Shown here: piece by piece, positions 3,598 to 64,000 of the stretch
How the letters are laid out: every line of letters starts with the position of its first letter
Numbering within the stretch: the first letter of the stretch is position 1
DNA from: Alistipes sp.
Lineage (GTDB): Bacteria; Bacteroidota; Bacteroidia; Bacteroidales; Rikenellaceae
Length of the DNA stretch: 64,000 nucleotides
Assembly: GCA_017517705.1 (NCBI GenBank)
Contig: JAFWYM010000027.1
Span: forward strand, 29,964-93,963
Direction of reading: 5' to 3'
Program-made: the position numbers and the translations under genes
Notes under the pieces: model-generated
Databases searched by the model: none
What the model was told of the DNA's origin: nothing
The model's input: the letters and a program-made list of their open reading frames with translations, nothing else

Positions 3598-3806
3598 CGT
3601 CATCGCGAAGAATTGCATCCGAAGGCTACACTGATACGCAACCACGCTCTATGCAATTCTGTGGCGATCTACCTTTGTTATCTCCCTCGCTGATGCGCAC
3701 CATCGCACTCCCTAACGAAGTATATTCAGCGGTAGATGCCCACGTTGGGGCATGGTAGCAATCAACTCTCTCCAACCACCACGGATGCCCCGCCTCGGCA
3801 TGACGA
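3598..3806 (+). repeat. MITE-like interspersed element, copy 1
   Basis: A ~208 bp element that begins CGTCATCGCG and ends GGCATGACG, so the six terminal bases CGTCAT/ATGACG are inverted repeats. Internal inverted repeats include GAATTGCAT (3610-3618) with ATGCAATTC (3651-3659). An inverted copy, alike over its whole length, is at 14076-14283, and a decayed relative is at 27284-27424. It has no coding capacity of its own; open frames across it differ between copies. Together with the G-run array it accounts for most of the 690-base gap between tRNA-Gln and the ohrR-like gene. Confidence 0.75.
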
Positions 3807-3996
3807 GTTGATTTATACTCCACCGACTATTAAGACTGAACCCTTTTACGGCTGAGTCTTTGGGTTTGGTCTAAAAATTTTGGATCGTACTATTTTTTTA
3901 TTTACCTTTGTTGTGCGCAATTAAATTTTGTACAATATTAATTATGTAGAGCATATACAGCCCGCGAGATAGAGAGGTGCTATAATACAAATTACG

Positions 3997-4422
3997 ATGA
4001 ACGATAAACTGAAACTCGAAAATCAACTATGCTTCCCGCTATATGCAGCGGCAAAGGAGGTGATGCGACGATATAGACCATTGCTCGACCCCTTTGGATT
4101 GACATATACACAGTATATTGCGATGATGGCGCTGTGGGAGCATAGGGCATTGACCATAACAGAGCTTGGTGCGATGCTCATGCTTGACTCGGGAACACTC
4201 ACCCCCATGCTTAAGAAGATGGAGGGCGATGGTCTTGTTGTTCGCCATCGCTCGGATGATGATGAGCGTAAGGTGATAGTATCGCTTACCGATAAGGGTG
4301 CCAAGCTTCATGATGACATTGGCATCGTGCCAGACTCGATGGGTGCATGTGTGAAGCTCGCGAGCGAGGAGGCAGCACAGCTCTATACGTTACTCTACAA
4401 ACTTATTAACACACTAAAATAG
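3997..4422 (+). CDS. ohrR: MarR-family peroxide-sensing regulator, OhrR-like
   Basis: A 141-residue MarR-family protein. The N-terminus LKLENQLCFPLYAAAKEV matches the OhrR subfamily, in which the N-terminal cysteine (here Cys12) is oxidised by organic hydroperoxides and releases DNA. The winged helix follows: LTITELGAMLMLDSGTLTPMLKKME and wing RSDDDERKVIVSLT. OhrR normally represses the peroxidase gene ohr, but no ohr is nearby; the two small genes behind it in the same run may be cotargets. The ATG at 3997 is followed at once by the conserved sequence. OhrR is favoured over a generic MarR call because of Cys12 and its context. Confidence 0.82.
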   Translation: MNDKLKLENQLCFPLYAAAKEVMRRYRPLLDPFGLTYTQYIAMMALWEHRALTITELGAMLMLDSGTLTPMLKKMEGDGLVVRHRSDDDERKVIVSLTDKGAKLHDDIGIVPDSMGACVKLASEEAAQLYTLLYKLINTLK

Positions 4423-53187: not shown

Positions 53188-54255
53188 CTACTTTGCCTCC
53201 CACTCGCAATATACGCATCGCACGATATCCTCCGAGCGCTCGAAGCGTGGGCGTACAGGCTCGAGATTGGAGATACACAGCGGGTTGGGACACTTGCATC
53301 CCATATCCACTCCTCCGTGGTCAAACGTACGCGTGACGTCATCCTGCCACTCGAGGAGTTTTAGGATAAGTGCCATGCGTACAAACTTGCCATTCTCCAC
53401 CTGACGGAAGTAGGCAGCACGCGGATCGTTGTCTACATCTATGGCTATCTCGTTAACACGGGGTAGGGGGTGTAGCACAGCCATACGCTCCTTCGCACCA
53501 CGCATCTTCGCGGCATCGAGCACGAAGCAATCCTTCACGCGCTCGTACTCCTCGAGATCGGTGAAGCGCTCCTGCTGTACGCGCGTCATATAGAGGATGT
53601 CCACATTGCCAATAACGCTCTCGATGTCCGATGCCTCGCGATACTCTACACCATAGCGGTCGCATACATCGCGTTTGATGTAGTCGGGGAGTGCCAACTC
53701 GGGAGGCGAGATAAGCACAAACTTGGTATTCTCGTAGCGTGTCATCGCCTTGATGAGCGAGTGTACCGTGCGGCCATACTTCAGGTCGCCAACAAGACCT
53801 ATCGTGAGGTTGTTGAGCGTGCCGAGCTCGCGTTTGATGGTGAGCAGGTCGGTCATCGTCTGTGTGGGGTGGCTGTGTGAGCCATCGCCTGCATTGATGA
53901 TGGGTGTGCGTGACACCTCCGTTGCGGCGAGTGGTGCTCCCTCGACCTTATGTCGCATGGCGATGATGTCGGCAAAGCAGTTGATGACCCTTACGGTGTC
54001 TTGCACGGTCTCGCCCTTCGATACCGACGAGCTCTTGGCATCGGCAAAACCTATTACGTTACCGCCAAGCTCCATCATTGCCGACGTGAAGCTCAGGCGC
54101 GTGCGTGTGCTCGGCTCGTAGAACAACGTGGCGAGCTTCTTGCCACGACACACCTCGCTATACTTCGCGCGGTTAGCAATGATATCCTCGGCTAAGGCTA
54201 TAATCTCGGCAATCTCGCTCACCGAGAGGTCTGTGGGGTCTATCAAGTGCTTCAT
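53188..54255 (-). CDS. pyrB: Aspartate carbamoyltransferase PyrB with a PyrI-like zinc tail
   Basis: A 355-residue enzyme joining carbamoyl phosphate and aspartate, the first committed pyrimidine step. The catalytic subunit occupies residues 1-306: carbamoyl-phosphate loop [12 protein letters not shown] (45-56), HPTQ (129-132), MTRVQQERF and HPLPRV. The extra 49 residues carry [17 protein letters not shown] and CVYCE; Cys322, 327, 347 and 350 repeat the CxxxxC...CxxC zinc pattern of the regulatory subunit PyrI. The PyrI nucleotide-binding domain is missing, so allosteric control by CTP/ATP is unlikely in the normal way. It is the last gene of the operon, 22 bases before the terminator. Confidence 0.96.
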
Positions 54256-54276: not shown

Positions 54277-54906
54277 TTACTTAATCCAGCTCTCATCCGA
54301 AGGGTTGCTTCTGAACTTAAGGATGCGCTCCTTGTCCTCGGCCTTGATGTAACCCTCCTCGGCAGCAACCTCTACGAGAGCATCCAAGTTCGAGAGCGAG
54401 TAGTTCTTGGCCTCGGCAGCAGCCAAGCGATCCAAGCCCTTCTGCATGCCGTAGGTGAAGATGCTCACGATACCCAATACCTCAGCACCGGCATTGCGCA
54501 AAGCCTCCACTACCTCGATGCAGCTGCCGGCAGTAGAGATGAGATCCTCGACAACGACAACCTTCTGTCCCTTCTCCAGCTTACCCTCAATCTGGTTACC
54601 ACGGCCGTGGTCCTTAGAGCCTGAGCGTACATAACCCATAGGGAGGTTGAGGATTGTCGCTGTGATGGCTGCATGGGCGATGCCCGCGGTCGATGTACCC
54701 ATCAGCACCTCTACCTCGGGGTAGTGCTTGCGTATAAGCTCGGCAAGACCCTCCTCCACGTGGTTGCGCACCTCGGGAGCGGTGAGTGTCAGGCGGTTAT
54801 CGCAGTATATAGGGCTCTTGATGCCACTTGCCCATGTGAAGGGCTGCTCGGGGCGGAGGAATACTGCGCCAATCGAGAGTAGGTCTTTTGCTATCTTCTT
54901 TTCCAT
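54277..54906 (-). CDS. pyrE: Orotate phosphoribosyltransferase PyrE
   Basis: A 209-residue enzyme converting orotate and PRPP to OMP. Conserved parts are [17 protein letters not shown] near the N-terminus, and the PRPP motif [28 protein letters not shown] (about 118-145). The glycine-rich [12 protein letters not shown] loop precedes it. It lies between pyrF and pyrB, 28 bases after pyrF and 21 before pyrB. Confidence 0.97.
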
Positions 54907-54934: not shown

Positions 54935-55636
54935 TTACTCTGCAAACTCCTTCATGCAACGCTCGTATGCTGCTACGGGGTCGTCGGCAGCAGTGATGGG
55001 GCGGCCTACGACGATGAAGTCGGAGCCTATCTCCTTAGCACGCTCGGGTGTTGTCACACGCACCTGGTCGCCCACGTCGCCATCGGCAAAGCGAACACCG
55101 GGTGTTACGGTCATAAACTCCTTGCCACATGCATCCTTTACCATCGCAGCCTCCAGGGGCGAGCATACCACACCATCGAGGCCTGCAAGCTTGGCATTCT
55201 CGGCATACTTAACGATGGTGTCGTTAATAGATGCACCGATGAGCAACTCCTTCTGCATGCGCTCCTCCGATGTGGATGTCAGCTGTGTCACGGCGATAAG
55301 CAAGGGGCGTGTGCCATCCTCGCGTGTAAGTCCCTCGATGGCTGCACGCATCATATCCACGGTGCCCGCAGCGTGTACGTTGGTCATGTCGACATCCAAA
55401 TTGCGGAGTACCGACATGGCCTTCTTCACTGTATTGGGAATATCGTGTAGCTTAAGGTCGAGGAAGATGCGGTGGCCTCGCGCCTTGATGGTGCGCACAA
55501 TCTCGGGGCCCTCGGCATAGAAGAGCTCCATGCCTATCTTCACAAAGGGCTTGCGGCCGGTGAACTTATCGAGGAAGTTCAAGGTCTGCTCCTTGCTGCT
55601 AAAGTCGCAAGCAATAATCACATCACGCTTACTCAT
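54935..55636 (-). CDS. pyrF: Orotidine 5'-phosphate decarboxylase PyrF (short type 1 form)
   Basis: A 233-residue TIM-barrel enzyme that removes CO2 from OMP to give UMP. The active-site signature is [19 protein letters not shown] with the Asp-Lys-x-x-Asp pattern, near residue 60; [16 protein letters not shown] and [22 protein letters not shown] follow. Length and motifs fit the short form used by E. coli and B. subtilis; many Bacteroidales use the longer (about 270-residue) form, a difference that fits a transferred operon. Confidence 0.95.
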
Positions 55637-55663: not shown

Positions 55664-56584
55664 CTACTTCACTATACCAATGATGTCGCTAAGGCGCTCT
55701 ATGCCCAAGCGCTCCATCTCCTTGGGTAGTGCCTCGATAATCTCCTTCGAGGCGTAAGGGTTCTTGAGGTTGGCAGCGCCCACCTGTACGGCAGTAGCTC
55801 CTGCCATCATCATCTCGATAACATCCGATGCTGTGCTCACGCCACCGCAGCCCATAACCGGAATACTACAAGCGTTAGCCACCTGATATACCATGCGTAC
55901 AGCCACGGGGAATATGGCATCGCCCGAGAATCCACCCATCTTATTCGCGATGACGGGTCGGCGACGCATGGTGTCGATACGCATGCCCAGAAGTGTGTTT
56001 ATAAGGCATATACCATCAGCGCCAGCCTCCTCGCATGCACGTGCTATGGCTACGATGTCCGTCACGTTGGGGCTGAGCTTAATATATACGGGTTTCGTAG
56101 TCACGGCCTTAACCCTGCGCGTGACCTCCGCGGCAGCCTCGGGTTGTGTACCGAAGCTCATGCCTCCGTTGTGCACATTGGGGCACGAGACGTTGACCTC
56201 AATAATCTCAACCTGCTCCTCCTTGTCGATCTTTGCGCAGCACTCCTCGTACTCATCGAGCGAGAAGCCGCTAATGTTGGCAACGATAGGGTTATGGAAT
56301 ATCTTACGCAGTGCGGGAAGCTCCTCCGCAATAACCTTGTCAATGCCCGGGTTTTGTAGGCCTACAGAGTTGATAAGGCCTGCCGTACACTCCGCAATGC
56401 GAGGTGTAGGATTACCAAAGCGAGCATCGCGCGTAGTACCCTTTATGGATATTGCACCCAAGCAGTCCAAGTCGTAGAACTCCGCGAACTCGCGACCGAA
56501 GCCGAAGGTGCCCGATGCCGGTATTATGGGGTTGTGGAGCTTCACGCCTGAAAGCTCAACCGTAGTGTCAAAGTTTTTTACCAT
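55664..56584 (-). CDS. pyrD: Dihydroorotate dehydrogenase B, catalytic subunit PyrD
   Basis: A 306-residue FMN enzyme oxidising dihydroorotate to orotate. N-terminal VELSGVKLHNPIIPASGTFGFGREF, active-site loop IIEVNVSCPNVHNGGMSFGTQ with the catalytic Cys, KLSPNVTDIVAIARACEEAGADGICLINTLLGM, and VYQVANACSIPVMGCGGVSTASDVIEMMMAGATAVQVG. This is the class 1B type, which pairs with the PyrK subunit and NAD. It overlaps the end of pyrK by seven bases. Confidence 0.97.
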   Translation of the reverse strand: MVKNFDTTVELSGVKLHNPIIPASGTFGFGREFAEFYDLDCLGAISIKGTTRDARFGNPTPRIAECTAGLINSVGLQNPGIDKVIAEELPALRKIFHNPIVANISGFSLDEYEECCAKIDKEEQVEIIEVNVSCPNVHNGGMSFGTQPEAAAEVTRRVKAVTTKPVYIKLSPNVTDIVAIARACEEAGADGICLINTLLGMRIDTMRRRPVIANKMGGFSGDAIFPVAVRMVYQVANACSIPVMGCGGVSTASDVIEMMMAGATAVQVGAANLKNPYASKEIIEALPKEMERLGIERLSDIIGIVK

Positions 56585-57318
56585 ATAATCTCGTCGCGTT
56601 TAAGTACCGGTCCCTCCTTGCATATACGTTTATAGCCACCCTTCGTCTTGCACGTGCAGCCCATACATCCGCCAAAGCCGCAGCCCATGCGCTCCTCGAA
56701 GCTGAACTCTCCGTCTACATCCGTAGCACTATATAGTGCCTTAAACATAGGCAGTGGGCCACAAGTATATAGGTAGTCGTACTCGATGCCCGCCTCGCGG
56801 ATAGCATCCGTGACAAAACCTTTGATGCCCATCGAGCCATCAGCTGTCGAGCAGTATACATCCACGCCCAAGGCCTTAAATTCTTCGGTGTAGAAGACCT
56901 CATCTTTGGTGTTGAAGCCTACAACCACCGTAGGGCGCTTACCCTCTGCAAGAAGCCTCTTGCAGAGGTTGTACATCGGAGGCACGCCCACGCCACCACC
57001 CACCAGCAGCGGGCGCTTCGCGTCGTTGTCCGTCGAGAAGCCATTACCCAAGCCTGTGAGTATGTCCAACTTGGTGCCCGCCTCCATCTGGCACATCTGC
57101 TCGGTGCCACGACCCACCACCTTATAGATGATGGTGATGGTCGTAGCATCGTAGTCGGCAACAGATATGGGGCGGCGCAAGAACTTACCCTCAAGCTCGA
57201 TGTTGATGAACTGCCCCGAGCGTGTGATATACTGGGTGTCACCCTCAAGCACCATGCGGTAGACCGTCGTGGTGAGAGGCTCGTTGCTTAGAACCGTATA
57301 TATTCCCTTCTTATACAT
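56578..57318 (-). CDS. pyrK: Dihydroorotate dehydrogenase B, electron transfer subunit PyrK
   Basis: A 246-residue FAD/[2Fe-2S] subunit that passes electrons from PyrD to NAD+. The start is the ATG 57316-57318, sharing one base with the carB stop (TAATG); a longer open frame runs into carB. Motifs: FRRPISVADYD-like stretch (KFLRRPISVADYD), GTKLDILTGLGNGF, PLLVGGGVGVPPMYNLC for FAD/NAD binding, and the cluster cysteines CGFGGCMGCTCKTKGGYKRIC at the C-terminus. Length is typical. Confidence 0.96.
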   Translation of the reverse strand: MYKKGIYTVLSNEPLTTTVYRMVLEGDTQYITRSGQFINIELEGKFLRRPISVADYDATTITIIYKVVGRGTEQMCQMEAGTKLDILTGLGNGFSTDNDAKRPLLVGGGVGVPPMYNLCKRLLAEGKRPTVVVGFNTKDEVFYTEEFKALGVDVYCSTADGSMGIKGFVTDAIREAGIEYDYLYTCGPLPMFKALYSATDVDGEFSFEERMGCGFGGCMGCTCKTKGGYKRICKEGPVLKRDEIIW

Positions 57319-60300
57319 TATTCGGCATCGATTGTCGATACGCCCAGCGTGATCTCCTCCAAGACGTCGAGCAGTACGCTTACGGTCTCCAAGGCGGTGA
57401 AGATTGTCACGTTGTTCTCCACGGCACAACGACGGATGTCGTAGCCATCGAGACGTGCGCTGTGCTGGTTGATATCGATGGTGTTAATAACATAGTTTAC
57501 GTGGCCCTTGCGTATAGACTCGAAAATCTCGGTTGAGCCCTCGCTGAGCTTCTTGAGCATGCGTGTGCGTATGCCGTTTTCGCGCAGATACTTTGCCGTG
57601 CCACCCGTAGCCTCGATGTTGAAGCCGAGCTCGTAGAAGCGACGTATGAGAGGCAGAGCGCGTGGCTTGTCGGCATCGGCGATAGAGACGAAGATGGTAC
57701 CATAGTTGGCAATGGTCATGCCCGACGACTGCAACGACTTGTAGAGTGCGCGACGTAGCGATGTGTCGTAGCCGATAGCCTCACCCGTAGACTTCATCTC
57801 GGGCGAGAGGTATGAGTCTACACCTCGAATCTTGGCAAACGAGAATGCCGGAGTCTTAACATACCAGCGCTTCTTCTCATCGGCGATAATCTTATCCACA
57901 CCCTGCTCCTTCAACGACTTGCCGAGCATCACGTTGGTAGCAATCTTCGGCATGGGCATACCCGTAGCCTTCGAGAGGAAGGGCACGGTACGCGACGAGC
58001 GGGGATTTACCTCGATGACGTAGACCTTATCTTGGTCGTCGGCGATAAACTGTATGTTATAGAGGCCGACGATGCCTATCTCCTTACCCAAGCGTATCGT
58101 ATAGTCGACGATCGTATCCTTCACCTTTTGGCTTACGCTGAAGGTGGGGTAGACACTTATCGAGTCGCCCGAGTGGATACCTGTGCGCTCGACATGCTCC
58201 ATGATGCCGGGGATGAATACGTCCTTGCCATCGCAGATAGCATCGACCTCCAGCTCCTTACCCATGATATACTTGTCGACCAAGACGGGCTGATCCTCGT
58301 TGAGCTCCACGGCAGTCTTGAGGTAGTGGCGTAGTGCCTCCTCGTTCGACACAATCTGCATGGCGCGACCACCCAACACGTAACTGGGGCGTACCAACAC
58401 GGGGTAGCCGATACGCTCGGCAGCGGCAACACCGCGCTCGATGTCGGTGATAGCCTCAGCATCGGGCTGAGGTATGCCTACGCGGCGCATGATTGCCTCG
58501 AAGCACTTTCTATCCTCCGCATTGTTGATAGCCTCGATGCCCGTACCGATAATCTCGACACCAAGGTCTGCCAAGGGCTTGGCAAGGTTGATTGCTGTCT
58601 GGCCACCAAGTGATACAACCACACCTGTGGGCTTCTCCAACTCGATGACGTTCATCACATCCTCCACCGTCAGCGGCTCGAAGTAGAGCTTGTCGCTGAT
58701 AGAGTAGTCCGTAGATACGGTCTCGGGGTTGTTGTTGATGATGATAGCCTCGTAGCCCGCTTCGCGTATTGCCCAAATGGCGTGTACCGTAGAGTAGTCG
58801 AACTCCACACCCTGGCCGATACGTATGGGGCCCGAGCCGAGAACTACAATCTTCTTATTGTTCGATACGATTGACTCGTTCTCCTCTTCGTACGTAGAGT
58901 AGAGGTATGGTACCTCAGAGTCGAACTCCGCAGCACACGTGTCGATCATCTTATATACGGGGAAGATGTTGTTCTGCTTACGGAAGAGGAACACCTCGCT
59001 CTCGGTCATGCCCCAGAGCTTAGCAATGTACTTGTCACTGAAGCCCAGACGCTTAGCATCATACAATACCTCGGCGTTGCGAACACCTTCCTTCACTACC
59101 TGCTCCATCTCGACGATGTTCTTAAGCTTCTCCAGGAAGAAGAGGTCTATCTTCGTGTTGTCGTAGACGTGCAAGAGGTCTACACCGCGGCGTATAAGCT
59201 CTGCGATGGCATAGATGCGGTCATCCGTACCCTTGCGTATATATGCCAGGATACCCTCCACCGACATCGTGTCGAACTTCTTGTGATATATGTGACATAC
59301 GCCTGTCTCCAATGAGCGCACGGCCTTCAAGAGACCCTCCTCGAAGGTGCGACCTACAGACATTACCTCGCCCGTAGCCTTCATCTGTGTGCCGAGCTCG
59401 TTCGAGGCATCGCTAAACTTATCGAAGGGGAAGCGTGCCACCTTCGTTACGATGTAGTCCAACGAGGGCTCGAAGCTCGCAGGGGTATTTGCTATACGAA
59501 TCTCGTCGAGGGTCATGCCCACAGCCACCTTCGCCGTAACGCGAGCGATAGGGTAGCCACTGGCCTTAGAGGCAAGAGCCGATGAGCGGCTTACGCGGGG
59601 GTTAACCTCGATGATATAGTATTTGAATGACAAGGGATCGAGGGCAAACTGAACGTTGCAACCACCCTCAATCTTCAGGGCACGGATGAGCTTTAGGGCA
59701 CTTGTGCGGAGCATCGAATACTCCTTGTGTGCCAGCGTCTGGCTCGGTGCCACAACTATAGAGTCACCCGTGTGGATACCTACGGGGTCGACATTCTCCA
59801 TCGAGCAGATAGCCAGCGCCGTGTCGTTCTTGTCGCGCATAACCTCGAACTCGATCTCCTTGTAACCCTTGATGCTCTTCTCGACAAGCACCTGGTGTAT
59901 TGGCGAGAGGGCAAGGGCATTACGCATAACATCGCGCAACTCATCCTCGTTGTCAGCAAAGCCACCACCCGTGCCACCAAGCGTGAAGGCAGGACGAAGA
60001 ACTACGGGGTAGCCTATCACCTTCGCAGCCTCGACACCCTCCTCGATAGAGTTGGTGATGCGCGAGGGGATGACGGGCTCGCCGATACGCAAGCACAACT
60101 CCTTGAAGAGCTCTCTATCCTCAGCCTCCTCGATAGAGGTGAACGACGTACCGAGAATCTCCACGCCGCACTCCTCCAAGATGCCCTTCTTCGCAAGTTG
60201 CACAGCGAGGTTAAGACCTGTCTGGCCACCGAGGCCCGGAACGATAGCATCGGGACGCTCGTAGCGTATAATCTTAGCCACATACTCCAGCGTGAGGGGC

Positions 60301-60500
60301 TCCATATATACCTTGTCGGCAATATGCGTGTCGGTCATGATAGTAGCAGGGTTGGAGTTGACGAGTATCACCTGATAGCCCTCCTCCTTAAGTGCAAGGC
60401 AGGCCTGCGTACCTGCATAGTCGAACTCGGCAGCCTGACCAATGACAATAGGGCCTGAGCCGATGACCATTATTTTCTTTATATCTGTTCTCTTAGGCAT
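57318..60500 (-). CDS. carB: Carbamoyl phosphate synthase large subunit CarB
   Basis: A 1060-residue synthase that makes carbamoyl phosphate from bicarbonate, ammonia and two ATP. It contains two homologous ATP-grasp halves: the first starts [27 protein letters not shown] with [14 protein letters not shown], and the second at about residue 550 with [24 protein letters not shown] and [18 protein letters not shown]. The C-terminal MGS-like allosteric domain (about 930-1060) has [25 protein letters not shown]. The core looks complete. It overlaps carA by eight bases and pyrK by one, so all are translationally linked. Confidence 0.98.
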
Positions 60501-61581
60501 TTTTCTCCTCCTCCATCAGTTTAATGAATTTATCGAATAGATATGTATCCATCGCCTCGGGCGTACAATCGGGCTGGTACTGCACAGAGAACACCTTGTC
60601 CTCCTGTGACTCAATGCCGGCAATCGTGCCGTCGAGCAGGTTGCGATGCGTAACCGTAAGCTTAGTGCCGGCAAGCGACTCCTCATTTACCACGAAGCTG
60701 TGGTTCTGCGATACGATCTCCATCTTGCCATTCTCCAAGCACTTCACGGGGTGGTTGGCACCGTGGTGGCCGAACTTGAGCTTGTCGTTCTTCGCTCCGT
60801 ATGCCATAGCGATAATCTGGTGACCGAGGTCTACACCAAATATGGGCAGCTTGCCACATAGAGCCTTGATAGCCTCGCCTACGACCATAACATCGGCGGG
60901 GTCACCAGGGCCGTTCGAGACGAAGATGCCATCGGGGTTGAAGGCCATAATCTCCTCGGGCGTAGAGTTGAAGGGTACGATGGTTACGTTGCAACCCTTG
61001 GCGTTGAGCTGACGTATGAAGCTATACTTAATACCGCAGTCGATGGCTACGACATCCCATGTGTGGTTGGGTGTGCGTGAGAACCAACGCTTCTTGCAGC
61101 TTACGCTCTCCACCTGGTTGTGGCGAGGTGTGGTGCTCTTGATGAGTGCCATAGCCTCGTCGTGACTCATGTCGATGTCGACGATGGCGGCACGCTGCGA
61201 GCCCTCATTGCGCAGAATACGAGTGATCATACGAGTGTCCACGTCGCTGATGCCGGGGATGTCGAGCTCCTCGAAGGTCTCGTCGATGGTCTTGGTGTAG
61301 CGGAAGTTGCTCGGTGCCTCGCAGCGCTCACGAACAACCATGCCTCCCATCGTGGGGAACTTACTCTCGTAGTCCTCGTCCATAAATCCGTAGTTACCCA
61401 TAAGCGGGTAAGTCATCACGACGATCTGATCGGTGTACGTCGGGTCGGAAACAATCTCCTGGTATCCCACCATCGAAGTGTTGAATACCAACTCACATAC
61501 GGCATTGCGCGATGAGCCAAAGCCATATCCGGGAAACTCCTTACCGTTCTCGAGTACAAGTTTCTTTGTAAAAGGTTTCAT
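60493..61581 (-). CDS. carA: Carbamoyl phosphate synthase small subunit CarA, glutaminase triad replaced
   Basis: A 362-residue small subunit. The N-terminal CarA domain has [17 protein letters not shown] and [18 protein letters not shown]. The C-terminal class-I amidotransferase domain keeps the fold landmarks [23 protein letters not shown] and QNHSFVV, but the nucleophile motif GxCLGHQ reads FGVDLGHQ: Asp251 replaces the catalytic Cys (Cys269 in E. coli). The His and Glu positions (E. coli HPE 353-355) read QPD, with Gln336 and Asp338. All three catalytic residues are therefore changed, so glutamine hydrolysis is not expected and ammonia is the likely nitrogen source. The frame is clean; this is not a frameshift artefact. 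Confidence 0.95.
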
Positions 61582-61614: not shown

Positions 61615-62877
61615 TTATCTCTCGTATACAACCTCACCACGGTGTATGGTCATCGCCACCTCGCCCTGCAACTCGCGACCGACGAACATTGATACCTTAC
61701 CCATAGAGTAGAACTTGTCGCTATCTACATGCCACTCTTTCGTGGTGTCCAAGAGTACAATGTCAGCTCTGTCGCCCACATTTATACCACCCGCAATGCG
61801 GAACACCTCTCTCGGGCGTATGCTCATAAGCTCCACAAGACGCTCCAGTGTGATGATGCCCTTCTCGACTATGTGCGTATTCATCGCCGCAAAGGCCGTT
61901 TCAAGACCTACGATGCCCATGGCGCTATCCTTCAATCCCTTAGACTTCTCCTCGATGCTGTGTGGCGCATGGTCTGTGGCAATCATATCGATGGTGCCAT
62001 CCTTGATGCCCTCGATAAGTGCAGCCCTATCTTCTGCCGAGCGTAGCGGTGGGTTCATCTTCCAGCGGGCATCCTCCTCCAAGTCCATATCTGTGAATAT
62101 TAGGTAGTGGGGGCCCGTCTCGCACGTAACCTTCACACCACGAGCCTTAGCCTGGCGTACAAGCTCCACGGTCTCCTTCGTAGATATGTGGCATACGTGG
62201 TAACGACATCCCGTGCGCTCGGCAATCTCGATGTCGCGCTTAACCTGTCCCCACTCGCTCTCCGAGCATATACCCTTATGACCATTTTTCGCAGCATACT
62301 CGCCATCGTGGATATAGCCACCCTTGAGTAGCTCCTCTACCTCGCAATGTGCAGCTATGAGGGCGTCGTGCTTCGCAGCCTCGGTCATCGCCCTCTCCAT
62401 CATGCCGTCAACCTGCACGCCACTGCCATCGTCCGAGAAGGCGGCTACGCCATCTTTCAGCGAGGCGATGTCTACAAGCTCCTCGCCCTTGCGACCTATG
62501 GTAATGGCGGCGTATGGCAGTACCTCGATCTTGGCATCGCGGTCGATAATATCCTGCTGCGCCTTGAGGTTTTCCACAGTGTCGGGCACGGGGTTGAGGT
62601 TGGGCATCGAACATACCGTGGTGTAGCCACCATGTGCTGCTGCCATCGTGCCCGTGGCGATGCGCTCCTTGTAGCCATAGCCTGGCTCACGAAGGTGTAC
62701 GTGTACATCGACGAACGATGGTGCCACAATGAGACCTTCGGCCGAAATAACTCTGTCATCAGCCGCAGGCTCAATGTTGCTACTGCGCTCCACGATTCTG
62801 CCTTCAGCAATTGCAATATCCTCTTTTCCAACACCTACGATGGTGCCACCCTTGATAATAATTCTGTTGTAACCCAT
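61615..62877 (-). CDS. pyrC: Dihydroorotase PyrC
   Basis: A 420-residue zinc amidohydrolase cyclising carbamoyl aspartate to dihydroorotate, first gene of the operon. Metal site DVHVHLREPGYGYKE, then GTMAAAHGGYTTVCSMPN, the His motifs ALIAAHCEVEEL and YHVCHISTKETVELV, and ATDHAPHSIEEKSKG. It is a class I type enzyme. The attenuator hairpin ends 4 bases before its ATG, so little room remains for a ribosome site in a terminated transcript. Confidence 0.97.
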   Translation of the reverse strand: MGYNRIIIKGGTIVGVGKEDIAIAEGRIVERSSNIEPAADDRVISAEGLIVAPSFVDVHVHLREPGYGYKERIATGTMAAAHGGYTTVCSMPNLNPVPDTVENLKAQQDIIDRDAKIEVLPYAAITIGRKGEELVDIASLKDGVAAFSDDGSGVQVDGMMERAMTEAAKHDALIAAHCEVEELLKGGYIHDGEYAAKNGHKGICSESEWGQVKRDIEIAERTGCRYHVCHISTKETVELVRQAKARGVKVTCETGPHYLIFTDMDLEEDARWKMNPPLRSAEDRAALIEGIKDGTIDMIATDHAPHSIEEKSKGLKDSAMGIVGLETAFAAMNTHIVEKGIITLERLVELMSIRPREVFRIAGGINVGDRADIVLLDTTKEWHVDSDKFYSMGKVSMFVGRELQGEVAMTIHRGEVVYER

Positions 62878-62881
62878 ATAT

Positions 62882-62907
62882 AAAAAAACAGCGACTCAAA
62901 GAGTCGC
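62882..62907 (-). terminator. Attenuator hairpin of the pyrimidine operon leader
   Basis: On the minus strand GCGACTC (62907-62901) and GAGTCGC (62897-62891) form a 7-bp GC-rich stem with a TTT loop, followed by TG and seven T (62888-62882), ending just before the pyrC ATG. It is a complete intrinsic terminator placed inside the leader. Confidence 0.85.
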
Positions 62908-62912
62908 CAATA

Positions 62913-63026
62913 TCAATTAAAAACAGTTGTTCCCAAATAGTTAAAACGTCGACAATTGCCCGCTGACTGCTTACCTCGCAGTCTCGCTGTTGGCTGGTTA
63001 TTTGTCGCTCGCTTCATTGTATCCAT
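62913..63026 (-). CDS. Putative pyr operon leader peptide (37 codons)
   Basis: An open frame from the ATG at 63024-63026 to the TGA at 62913-62915, starting MDTMKRATNNQPTARLRG and ending FNYLGTTVFN. The stop lies six bases before the attenuator stem, so a ribosome that reaches it would cover the stem's 5' arm and prevent termination. Just before the stop the RNA has a run of five U (GUUUUUAAU), where RNA polymerase could pause when UTP is low, and further up a pause-type hairpin GACTGC/GCAGTC (about 62966-62984). A second in-frame ATG lies at 63015-63017. The layout copies E. coli pyrL-pyrBI; the peptide sequence itself is unrelated. Confidence 0.6.
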   Translation of the reverse strand: MDTMKRATNNQPTARLRGKQSAGNCRRFNYLGTTVFN

Positions 63027-63035
63027 AAATTTGTG

Positions 63036-63066
63036 CAAAGGTAAGTATTTTTTGCAAATCGTGCAA
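63036..63066 (-). promoter_or_regulatory. Promoter of the pyrimidine operon
   Basis: On the minus strand TTG (63066-63064) and TACCTTTG (63043-63036) are 20 bases apart, predicting a transcript that starts within a few bases of the leader-peptide ATG and a leader of about 150 bases before pyrC. Confidence 0.8.
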
Positions 63067-63170
63067 TATTTACGTTTGCTAATTTCTCGCTTTGCTATAA
63101 ATTTTTTTATCTTCGTGGAGTTGTGGGGATAAAATCTCGGACAATGACCCTCCTTGCAGAATAATTGTAG

Positions 63171-63178
63171 TATATTTG
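63171..63178 (+). promoter_or_regulatory. -7 promoter box of the DedA-like gene
   Basis: TATATTTG matches TAnnTTTG, 26 bases before the ATG at 63205. No good -33 box is at the usual distance. Confidence 0.6.
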
Positions 63179-63204
63179 CGAGGTATAAGCAGAGTGTTAT
63201 TTCG

Positions 63205-63648
63205 ATGGAAGGACTTCTTGAATTTGGTTACGTGGGGCTTTTTTTAGGCTCATTGCTCGCAGCTACGATATTTCCGTTTAGCTCCGATGTGTTGCTCCTC
63301 GGCATGCTCATTGCCGGTGGCGACCCTGTGATCACGGTTGTCGTTGCTACACTCGGAAACTGGACGGGCGGACTCATAGGCTACGGTATGGGCTACCTCG
63401 GTAAGCTCGAATGGCTGGAGCGCTGGTTTAAAGTTAAGCACGAGACCATCGTAAAACATCGTGCTAAGGCGGAGCGTTGGGGCCCGCTCTTGGCACTCCT
63501 TACGTGGACACCCTTCGTGGGCGACATCTTTGCTATCGTCCTCGGCTTCTATAAGGTGCGCTTCATCCCCTCGGCACTTTGGATGTTTGTCGGCAAGTGT
63601 GGCCGCTATATCTTTTGGGCTATAGGACACTTTTACTTTACAAATTAG
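63205..63648 (+). CDS. DedA/YqaA-like (VTT domain) inner-membrane protein
   Basis: A 147-residue membrane protein starting at the ATG 63205-63207; an upstream in-frame TTG lies before the promoter box. About four hydrophobic segments are visible. The pattern EFGYVGLFLGSLLAATIFPFSSDVLLLGMLIAGGDP, then TLGNWTGGLIGYGMGYLGKLEW, then WGPLLALLTWTPFVGDIFAIVLGFYKVRF, is that of the small YqaA group in the DedA/VTT superfamily, with the G-x-W/R-P-F type loop as TPFVGD. The superfamily is linked to lipid transport across membranes; the role of YqaA is unclear. Its own terminator follows. Confidence 0.87.
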   Translation: MEGLLEFGYVGLFLGSLLAATIFPFSSDVLLLGMLIAGGDPVITVVVATLGNWTGGLIGYGMGYLGKLEWLERWFKVKHETIVKHRAKAERWGPLLALLTWTPFVGDIFAIVLGFYKVRFIPSALWMFVGKCGRYIFWAIGHFYFTN

Positions 63649-63730: not shown

Positions 63731-63739
63731 GATATGAAG

Positions 63740-64000
63740 TGACCCCAAAAGTTTGGACAAAAAACTTTTGGGGTTTCATTATGCGCAAAACACACGATTA
63801 TGTAGCATTACTCAAATATATGAGGATGCTCGAAGACGGTTACTCGGTCAAATCAATTGCTAAAAATTATGGTATTGGAGCAAATAGGTTAAGTTATCTT
63901 TGGCATTTCTACCAAGAACAAGGTACTACAGTTCTGCATCGCAAGAAAAATATTCGCGCCGATGGAGCATTAAAGCAACACATTCTATCTGATATTGAGA
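63740..64000 (+). mobile_element. Left end of an IS3-like insertion sequence
   Basis: The end TGACCCCAAAAGTTTGGACA (63740-63759) looks like an IS3-family terminal repeat. It is followed by a strong hairpin CCCCAAAAGTTT / AAACTTTTGGGG (63743-63773) that would sequester the orfA start region in read-through transcripts, and then an orfA-like frame. The stretch is more AT-rich than the neighbouring genes, as expected for incoming DNA. The right end is outside the window, so the whole element cannot be checked. Confidence 0.8.
63781..64000 (+). CDS. IS3-family transposase OrfA, N-terminal 73 codons (runs off the right edge)
   Basis: The frame opens at the ATG 63781-63783 and is still open at base 64000. 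The product starts MRKTHDYVALLKYMRMLEDG and contains a helix-turn-helix of the IS3 OrfA kind: YSVKSIAKNYGIGANRLSYLWHFYQEQG (about 21-48). In IS3 elements OrfA binds the terminal repeats and a programmed frameshift joins it to the DDE transposase OrfB; neither the shift site nor OrfB is in the window. Confidence 0.8.
   Translation, partial: MRKTHDYVALLKYMRMLEDGYSVKSIAKNYGIGANRLSYLWHFYQEQGTTVLHRKKNIRADGALKQHILSDIE

Follow-up and report, generated by a model that had tools for sequence, protein, structure and literature searches.

The eight-gene pyr operon at the right end of the window (the whole 64 kb stretch of Alistipes DNA analysed here) is probably controlled by a translation-coupled transcription attenuator that works like that of E. 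coli pyrBI, with UTP as the signal. The two parts of this reading differ in strength: attenuation by a translated leader is very likely, and, given such attenuation, UTP is likely to be the signal. Comparison of sequences supports the ORF, the position of its stop codon, the terminator and the U-rich stretch, and shows neither a conserved structure that would compete with the terminator nor a PyrR over the cut-off; from these we infer translation, termination, pausing and the UTP signal. Read along the minus strand, the leader has a promoter and a short ORF with a U5 run near its stop codon; a hairpin and seven U come next, and after them pyrC. The positions are as follows:

63036..63066, minus strand: promoter, TTG at 63066-63064 plus TACCTTTG at 63043-63036, box class TAnnTTTG, read from the sequence
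ATG 63026 to TGA 62915-62913, minus strand: leader ORF, long form, 37 codons, read from the sequence
62913..63017, minus strand: 34-codon leader ORF beginning at the conserved ATG, MKRATNNQPTARLRGKQSAGNCRRFNYLGTTVFN, from comparison with relatives
62919..62923, minus strand: U5 run, 9-10 nt ahead of the terminator stem, a predicted UTP-sensitive pause site of RNA polymerase
62913..62915, minus strand: leader stop codon TGA, 3-4 nt ahead of the stem, read from the sequence
62882..62909, minus strand: intrinsic terminator, 8-9 bp stem, 3-nt loop, seven U

The TTG at 63066-63064 is presumably the -33 promoter element, and a TAnnTTTG box lies upstream in the leaders of most relatives. With a spacing rule borrowed from PMC9723704, a passage of which places the promoter box at -12 to -5 in a flavobacterium, the transcription start is predicted at 63031, reading AAUUUAUGG; the first ATG would then lie at +6 and the second at +15. 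The first-pass annotation had described a promoter, a 37-codon frame with its ATG at 63026, a U5 run, a hairpin and a U7 tract, and all of them are found where it had placed them. The start that it assigned to the frame probably does not hold, however: the ATG kept among relatives is the second one of the window frame, and the true start is probably 63017, nine bases downstream of ATG 63026. The hairpin at 62909-62889 reads TGGCGACTC TTT GAGTCGCTG, with 9 pairs if the outer T-G is counted, and folds in isolation with 8 pairs at -11.9 kcal/mol. The stop codon does lie upstream of it, as had been claimed, but at 3-4 nt before the first pair instead of six bases. The U7 tract at 62888-62882 is followed by ATAT and the pyrC ATG at 62877, which agrees with the four bases given earlier for this gap. 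A simple consensus terminator scan by itself stays at chance level here (2 found, compared to a mean of 1.8 in shuffles), so the significance of the leader rests on its conservation.

In the proposed mechanism, transcription would begin near 63031, and a ribosome would initiate the leader ORF at 63017. As long as UTP is abundant, the polymerase would clear the U-rich end of the ORF undelayed while the ribosome lags; the hairpin would form, and transcription would stop in the U7 tract just ahead of pyrC. When UTP is low, the polymerase would pause in the U run, and the ribosome would catch up and occupy the region of the stop codon. There its footprint would extend over the 5' arm of the hairpin, leaving the terminator unfolded, and all eight genes would be transcribed. 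With only 3-4 nt between stop and stem, the geometry fits coupling data from E. coli: a passage of PMC4824070 reports that terminator efficiency fell from ~90% to <10% with coupled translation when the stop was moved to 5 bp from the terminator, and an excerpt of PMC5021804 states that tight coupling across pyrL is needed to prevent the terminator.

The genes that such a leader would control are eight closely packed minus-strand genes in the order pyrC-carA-carB-pyrK-pyrD-pyrF-pyrE-pyrB. NCBIfam supports all eight, in agreement with the eight-gene operon proposed earlier; seven exceed a curated cut-off, and pyrK falls below its own:

61615..62877, minus strand: pyrC, dihydroorotase, first gene of the operon (TIGR00857, over cut-off)
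60493..61581, minus strand: carA, carbamoyl-phosphate synthase small subunit (TIGR01368, over cut-off)
57318..60500, minus strand: carB, carbamoyl-phosphate synthase large subunit (TIGR01369, over cut-off)
56578..57318, minus strand: pyrK, dihydroorotate dehydrogenase electron transfer subunit (NF000799, E 1e-72, under the curated cut-off, matched on a stretch five codons longer than these coordinates)
55664..56584, minus strand: pyrD, dihydroorotate dehydrogenase (NF005574, over cut-off)
54935..55636, minus strand: pyrF, OMP decarboxylase (NF001273, over cut-off)
54277..54906, minus strand: pyrE, orotate phosphoribosyltransferase (TIGR00336, over cut-off)
53188..54255, minus strand: pyrB, aspartate carbamoyltransferase fused to the PyrI zinc-binding domain (TIGR00670, over cut-off)

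In the window PyrB (53188-54255), Pfam places PyrI_C at residues 320-353 as a C-terminal fusion and gives no match to the PyrI allosteric domain; nucleotide feedback on this enzyme may be absent. Among named records ranked by pyrC, the first comes from a roe-deer MAG of Alistipes sp. (PyrC 94% identical); the 29 that follow carry the labels Alistipes sp. or Rikenellaceae too, and ruminant guts are the source of most of them. Based on these labels, we take the order to be Bacteroidales; the terms order and phylum in the counts below follow kinship labels attached to the genomes.

Conservation was scored in the same genus, in leaders near named MAGs and in a sister genus; other genera of the family have a diverged pyrC (31-36% identity). 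A pyrC match was present in 70 same-genus genomes, 67 of which gave scored leaders (G008, G018 and G052 were unscored). Together with 17 leaders near named MAGs, these make up a set of 84 distinct pyrC leaders out of 91 extracted, after six Firmicutes-labelled loci (L101-L103, L105-L107) and one divergent pyrC (L069) had been left out; L045, L070 and L108-L110 were also dropped, and so was any leader identical to another over its last 150 nt. Under a strict criterion (a terminator within 75 nt, and an ATG ORF of at least 20 codons after the promoter box that ends no more than 12 nt from the stem start), the script found a terminator in 78 of the 84 leaders, and 73 of these 78 carry an ORF with its stop at the stem, where dinucleotide shuffles lead one to expect 9.5. 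The sister genus shows the arrangement in 20/20 leaders. A kept hairpin with a lost frame, which the first-pass annotation had named as evidence against its reading, is thus not what these two genera present. The commonest distance from stop to stem is 4 nt (29 leaders), and in some clades the ORF ends inside the stem. Under a looser criterion (ATG start, ORF allowed to run through the terminator, dinucleotide shuffles), in which only the six Firmicutes-labelled loci were left out, 63 of 85 genus-set leaders were scorable and 60 of the 63 carry the ORF (18.4 expected), as do 20/20 in the sister genus (7.2 expected); these two-genus counts, like the order-level ones below, are rough, some stems having been picked inside the ORF with large negative stop-to-stem values.

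The other 11 of the 84 leaders were read one by one. In L029, L030, L034, L035 and L051, frame and terminator are present by eye and were missed by the script, and L040, L055 and L060 have, by eye, a GTG-start frame ending in or after the stem. These three and L039 seem to form a GTG-start group, in which the stop of L055 and L060 apparently lies in the terminator loop. In the close relatives L003 and L096 the stop is gone and the frame passes through the terminator, which may be a true change or an assembly error. L032, of the same genus, has no leader. Acquisition of leader and pyrC from Firmicutes was also considered and dropped because the six Firmicutes-labelled pyrC loci, with the labels Oscillospiraceae, Clostridia, Clostridiales and Peptococcaceae, show no recognisable version of the leader; one of them (L103) has a terminator and lacks the TAnnTTTG box.

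The pattern of codon changes also favours the annotated frame. Among 45 pairs with at least 72% identity, taken from 30 leaders trimmed to 34 codons and thus non-independent, codons with a single change are synonymous in 157 of 336 cases in the annotated frame (157 synonymous, 179 not), compared to 80 of 384 (80/304) and 90 of 326 (90/236) in the shifted frames. Changes by codon position number 230, 325 and 376, the third being highest. More changes fall on the second position than on the first, an uncommon pattern in a protein under selection, and selection on the leader peptide is therefore weak at best. The leader peptides vary widely between clades of the same genus, and only in the close clade is a C-terminus, ITVFN, partly kept. 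What is kept in the compared sequences is the frame, the stop position, the terminator and the U-rich stretch, and not the peptide or the upstream RNA folds.

The U-rich stretch is the feature that points to UTP. In the two genera, 72 of 101 leaders have a 10-mer with at least 7 T ahead of the stem, compared to 17.0 in shuffles that keep base composition only (mononucleotide), and so do 20 of 36 representatives after clustering at 62% identity (5.8 shuffled); the mean maxima of A, C and G 10-mers fall below those of the shuffles. These counts, too, are rough because some stems were picked inside the ORF. In the 73 leaders, the T peak lies 4-11 nt ahead of the stop. Since the U-rich stretch persists while the peptide varies, the nucleotide sequence rather than the peptide is, on balance, the likelier sensor, which suggests UTP. 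On the other hand, non-leader control terminators before pyrB also have T-rich 10-mers (16/39, compared to 6.5 in shuffles of the same kind), so the U signal is partly general and only part of it is specific. In other families the excess before pyrB is small (6/20 leaders, compared to 3.9 shuffled), and the UTP step of the argument therefore depends on two genera, that of the window and its sister.

These same data leave some room for a translation-coupled attenuator that senses another signal, such as nascent-peptide arrest or overall translation capacity, with a ribosome held at the stop keeping the terminator open. The in-frame synonymous excess, the partly kept ITVFN C-terminus of the close clade, the small U-rich excess in other families and the presence of some in control terminators are consistent with it; however, the peptides diverge between clades of the genus while the U-rich stretch persists, and the target is the first pyr gene, be it pyrC or pyrB. 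We regard this explanation as unlikely, and UTP as the better candidate.

A second UTP sensor is possible in the close clade, by start-site slippage at AAUUUA. According to a passage of PMC6245113, UTP-dependent slippage near the start occurs at E. coli pyrBI, codBA, upp and carAB. Among 33 close relatives, 24 have AATTT after the promoter box; the counts are 13/63 for the whole genus set, 5/20 for the sister genus and 0/20 for the order set, so that the motif is largely limited to the close clade. Within the window, it follows 5 of 56 TAnnTTTG boxes, the pyr promoter included.

Classical amino-acid attenuation, in which a shortage of one amino acid holds the ribosome at the corresponding codons so that an antiterminator can form, would also make use of a short ORF plus terminator. 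Arginine is found at positions 23 and 24 in 25/30 and 20/30 close leaders, respectively, and carbamoyl phosphate is, in an excerpt of PMC6245113, common to arginine synthesis. However, clusters of four of one residue in eight occur in at most 3 of 93 leaders for any residue, although the test passes 4 of 6 typed-in His leaders as a positive control; there is no competing conserved structure, and the stop abuts the terminator. Amino-acid sensing was rejected for want of a common codon cluster and is very improbable.

Equally improbable is a riboswitch, or an RNA-binding protein of the PyrR type, that acts on a folded leader in which the ORF is incidental. The window leader alone does fold elaborately (-41.6 kcal/mol), but its z of -1.8 is unremarkable, 11 of 200 shuffles being as good, and the fold is not kept in relatives. 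RNAalifold over 31 close leaders gave the terminator as the only conserved structure, with one stem position paired in 31/31 leaders (G-C 16, A-U 10, G-U 5), and no conserved aptamer fold or antiterminator hairpin beyond it. An Rfam scan of the leader returned zero matches at the gathering score or at E 10, the PyrR-binding element included. As for the protein, one model (NF003549) was searched: PyrR exceeds its cut-off in 0/81 genus genomes, where weak matches occur in 60 (best 33 bits, cut-off 138), and in 0/198 order genomes. The same model is over cut-off in 71/118 genomes of the phylum, among which are 25/28 of the same class outside the order, several with pyrR adjoining pyrB. The earlier failure to recognise a pyrR gene or a PyrR-binding loop is thereby borne out, and both the folded element and PyrR control were rejected as explanations for the window leader.

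That a chance ORF precedes a plain terminator that merely lowers constitutive expression is hardly credible: the terminator scan alone is at chance level and short ORFs are common (with an ATG start, the looser criterion finds one in ~30% of shuffles), but conservation far exceeds the shuffles in two genera and is accompanied by the in-frame synonymous excess.

The arrangement in the window resembles E. coli pyrBI and its leader frame pyrL in having a promoter, a leader ORF, a U-rich stretch and an intrinsic terminator just before the first pyr gene, and in its predicted first bases, AAUUUA here and AAUUUG there, the latter being what we take to be the E. coli pyrBI transcription start. The pyrBI-like spatial arrangement proposed earlier is borne out only in part: the pyrL frame continues across its terminator to a stop 3 nt ahead of pyrB (the passage through the terminator is also described in PMC4824070), whereas the Alistipes leader stops 3-4 nt before the stem. 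Since it stops there, the leader ORF is described as working like a pyrL and is not classed as one. Moreover, the U-rich stretch is nearer the stem than in E. coli (median -15, compared to -28), the leaders have no evident sequence similarity by eye, the operon has eight genes instead of two, and the promoter is of the Bacteroidota type.

Other known systems share single features with this leader. In E. coli pyrE, the frame of the preceding gene rph closes immediately ahead of the attenuator; a stop codon before the stem would be common to both, but in E. coli the frame is a full upstream gene and not a dedicated leader ORF. In the PyrR-dependent attenuators of Bacillus, pyr genes are attenuated in response to pyrimidines through a protein-bound RNA fold and not a translating ribosome; the Alistipes leader differs in lacking an Rfam match, and the order sample in lacking PyrR over the cut-off. 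The his-type attenuators also have a short ORF before a terminator, and such ORFs precede hisG in this genus as well; the Alistipes pyr leader differs from them in having neither a codon run nor a conserved competing hairpin, and in a stop that adjoins the terminator.

A 2010 survey was aware of demonstrated leader-peptide systems only in Proteobacteria and Actinobacteria, the ermC leader excepted (PMC2965389). For Flavobacterium psychrophilum, a passage of PMC9723704 sees "strong clues" that amino-acid operons are attenuated by means of leader peptides, and one on B. thetaiotaomicron describes sORFs in long 5' UTRs as reminiscent of leader peptides (PMC7366714). The first-pass annotation knew of no example of pyr attenuation in Bacteroidota, and none is described among the matches listed in open-licence PMC papers; the same matches describe no means by which Bacteroidota without PyrR match pyrimidine synthesis to demand.

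Beyond the two genera, 195 genomes of other families of the order had a pyrB match, and 108 upstream regions were taken. A terminator is present in 59 of them and a suitably spaced promoter with a terminator in 24; the pair is missing from the other 84, so the arrangement is recurrent and not universal. Many terminators that precede pyrB seem to belong to an upstream gene. A leader frame is found in 20 of the 24 regions, 19 with ATG, where 6.3 are expected for ATG under the looser criterion, a rough count as stated above. With two doubtful loci (L197, L206) excluded, 18 sound pyrB leaders from 13 other families are left, and in 7 of these 18 the frame passes through the terminator, as in E. 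coli pyrL. The pyrB leader loci include L120, L123, L125, L127, L130, L134, L135, L138, L171, L176, L188, L204, L207 and L221.

A bolder reading, less likely than not, is that Bacteroidales, lacking PyrR, arrived at the pyrBI strategy independently of E. coli and more than once, with a leader frame that either ends ahead of the stem or continues across it, and that control in the window's clade may act twice, by slippage at AAUUUA and by pausing in the U run. If this is true, ribosome and polymerase would be tightly coupled in Bacteroidota. A UTP attenuator that works only if a ribosome follows closely behind the polymerase could serve as a natural reporter of how tightly transcription and translation are coupled in this major phylum of the gut, and would be an instance of one regulatory logic that arose with unrelated sequence in distant bacteria.

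Ribosome-mediated attenuation also looks plausible in this lineage from its his leader ORFs. Of 41 genus genomes, 8 gave a hisG match, the window's own genome not among them, and by eye a His-rich leader ORF followed by a terminator precedes it at 7 of the 8 loci, the eighth being mis-sited. The seven (L246, L247, L249-L253), with His-rich runs such as IHHYHH, are apparent his attenuators.

Within the 64 kb window, the combination of promoter box, leader ORF, terminator and long gene occurs in two places, the pyr leader and ~3670-3997. In the latter region (3670-4419), a promoter-like box, a short ORF and a terminator are followed by a MarR-family regulator gene. The match at 3670-3997 was judged to be due to chance because a further TTTACCTTTG box lies between its terminator and the gene, nearer to the gene. 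Next to the pyr operon, the divergent neighbour at 63154-63648 resembles a VTT-domain membrane protein, presumably DedA-like, just under the Pfam cut-off, and the ORF that leaves the window end at 63739-64000 looks, by eye, like a helix-turn-helix transposase fragment.
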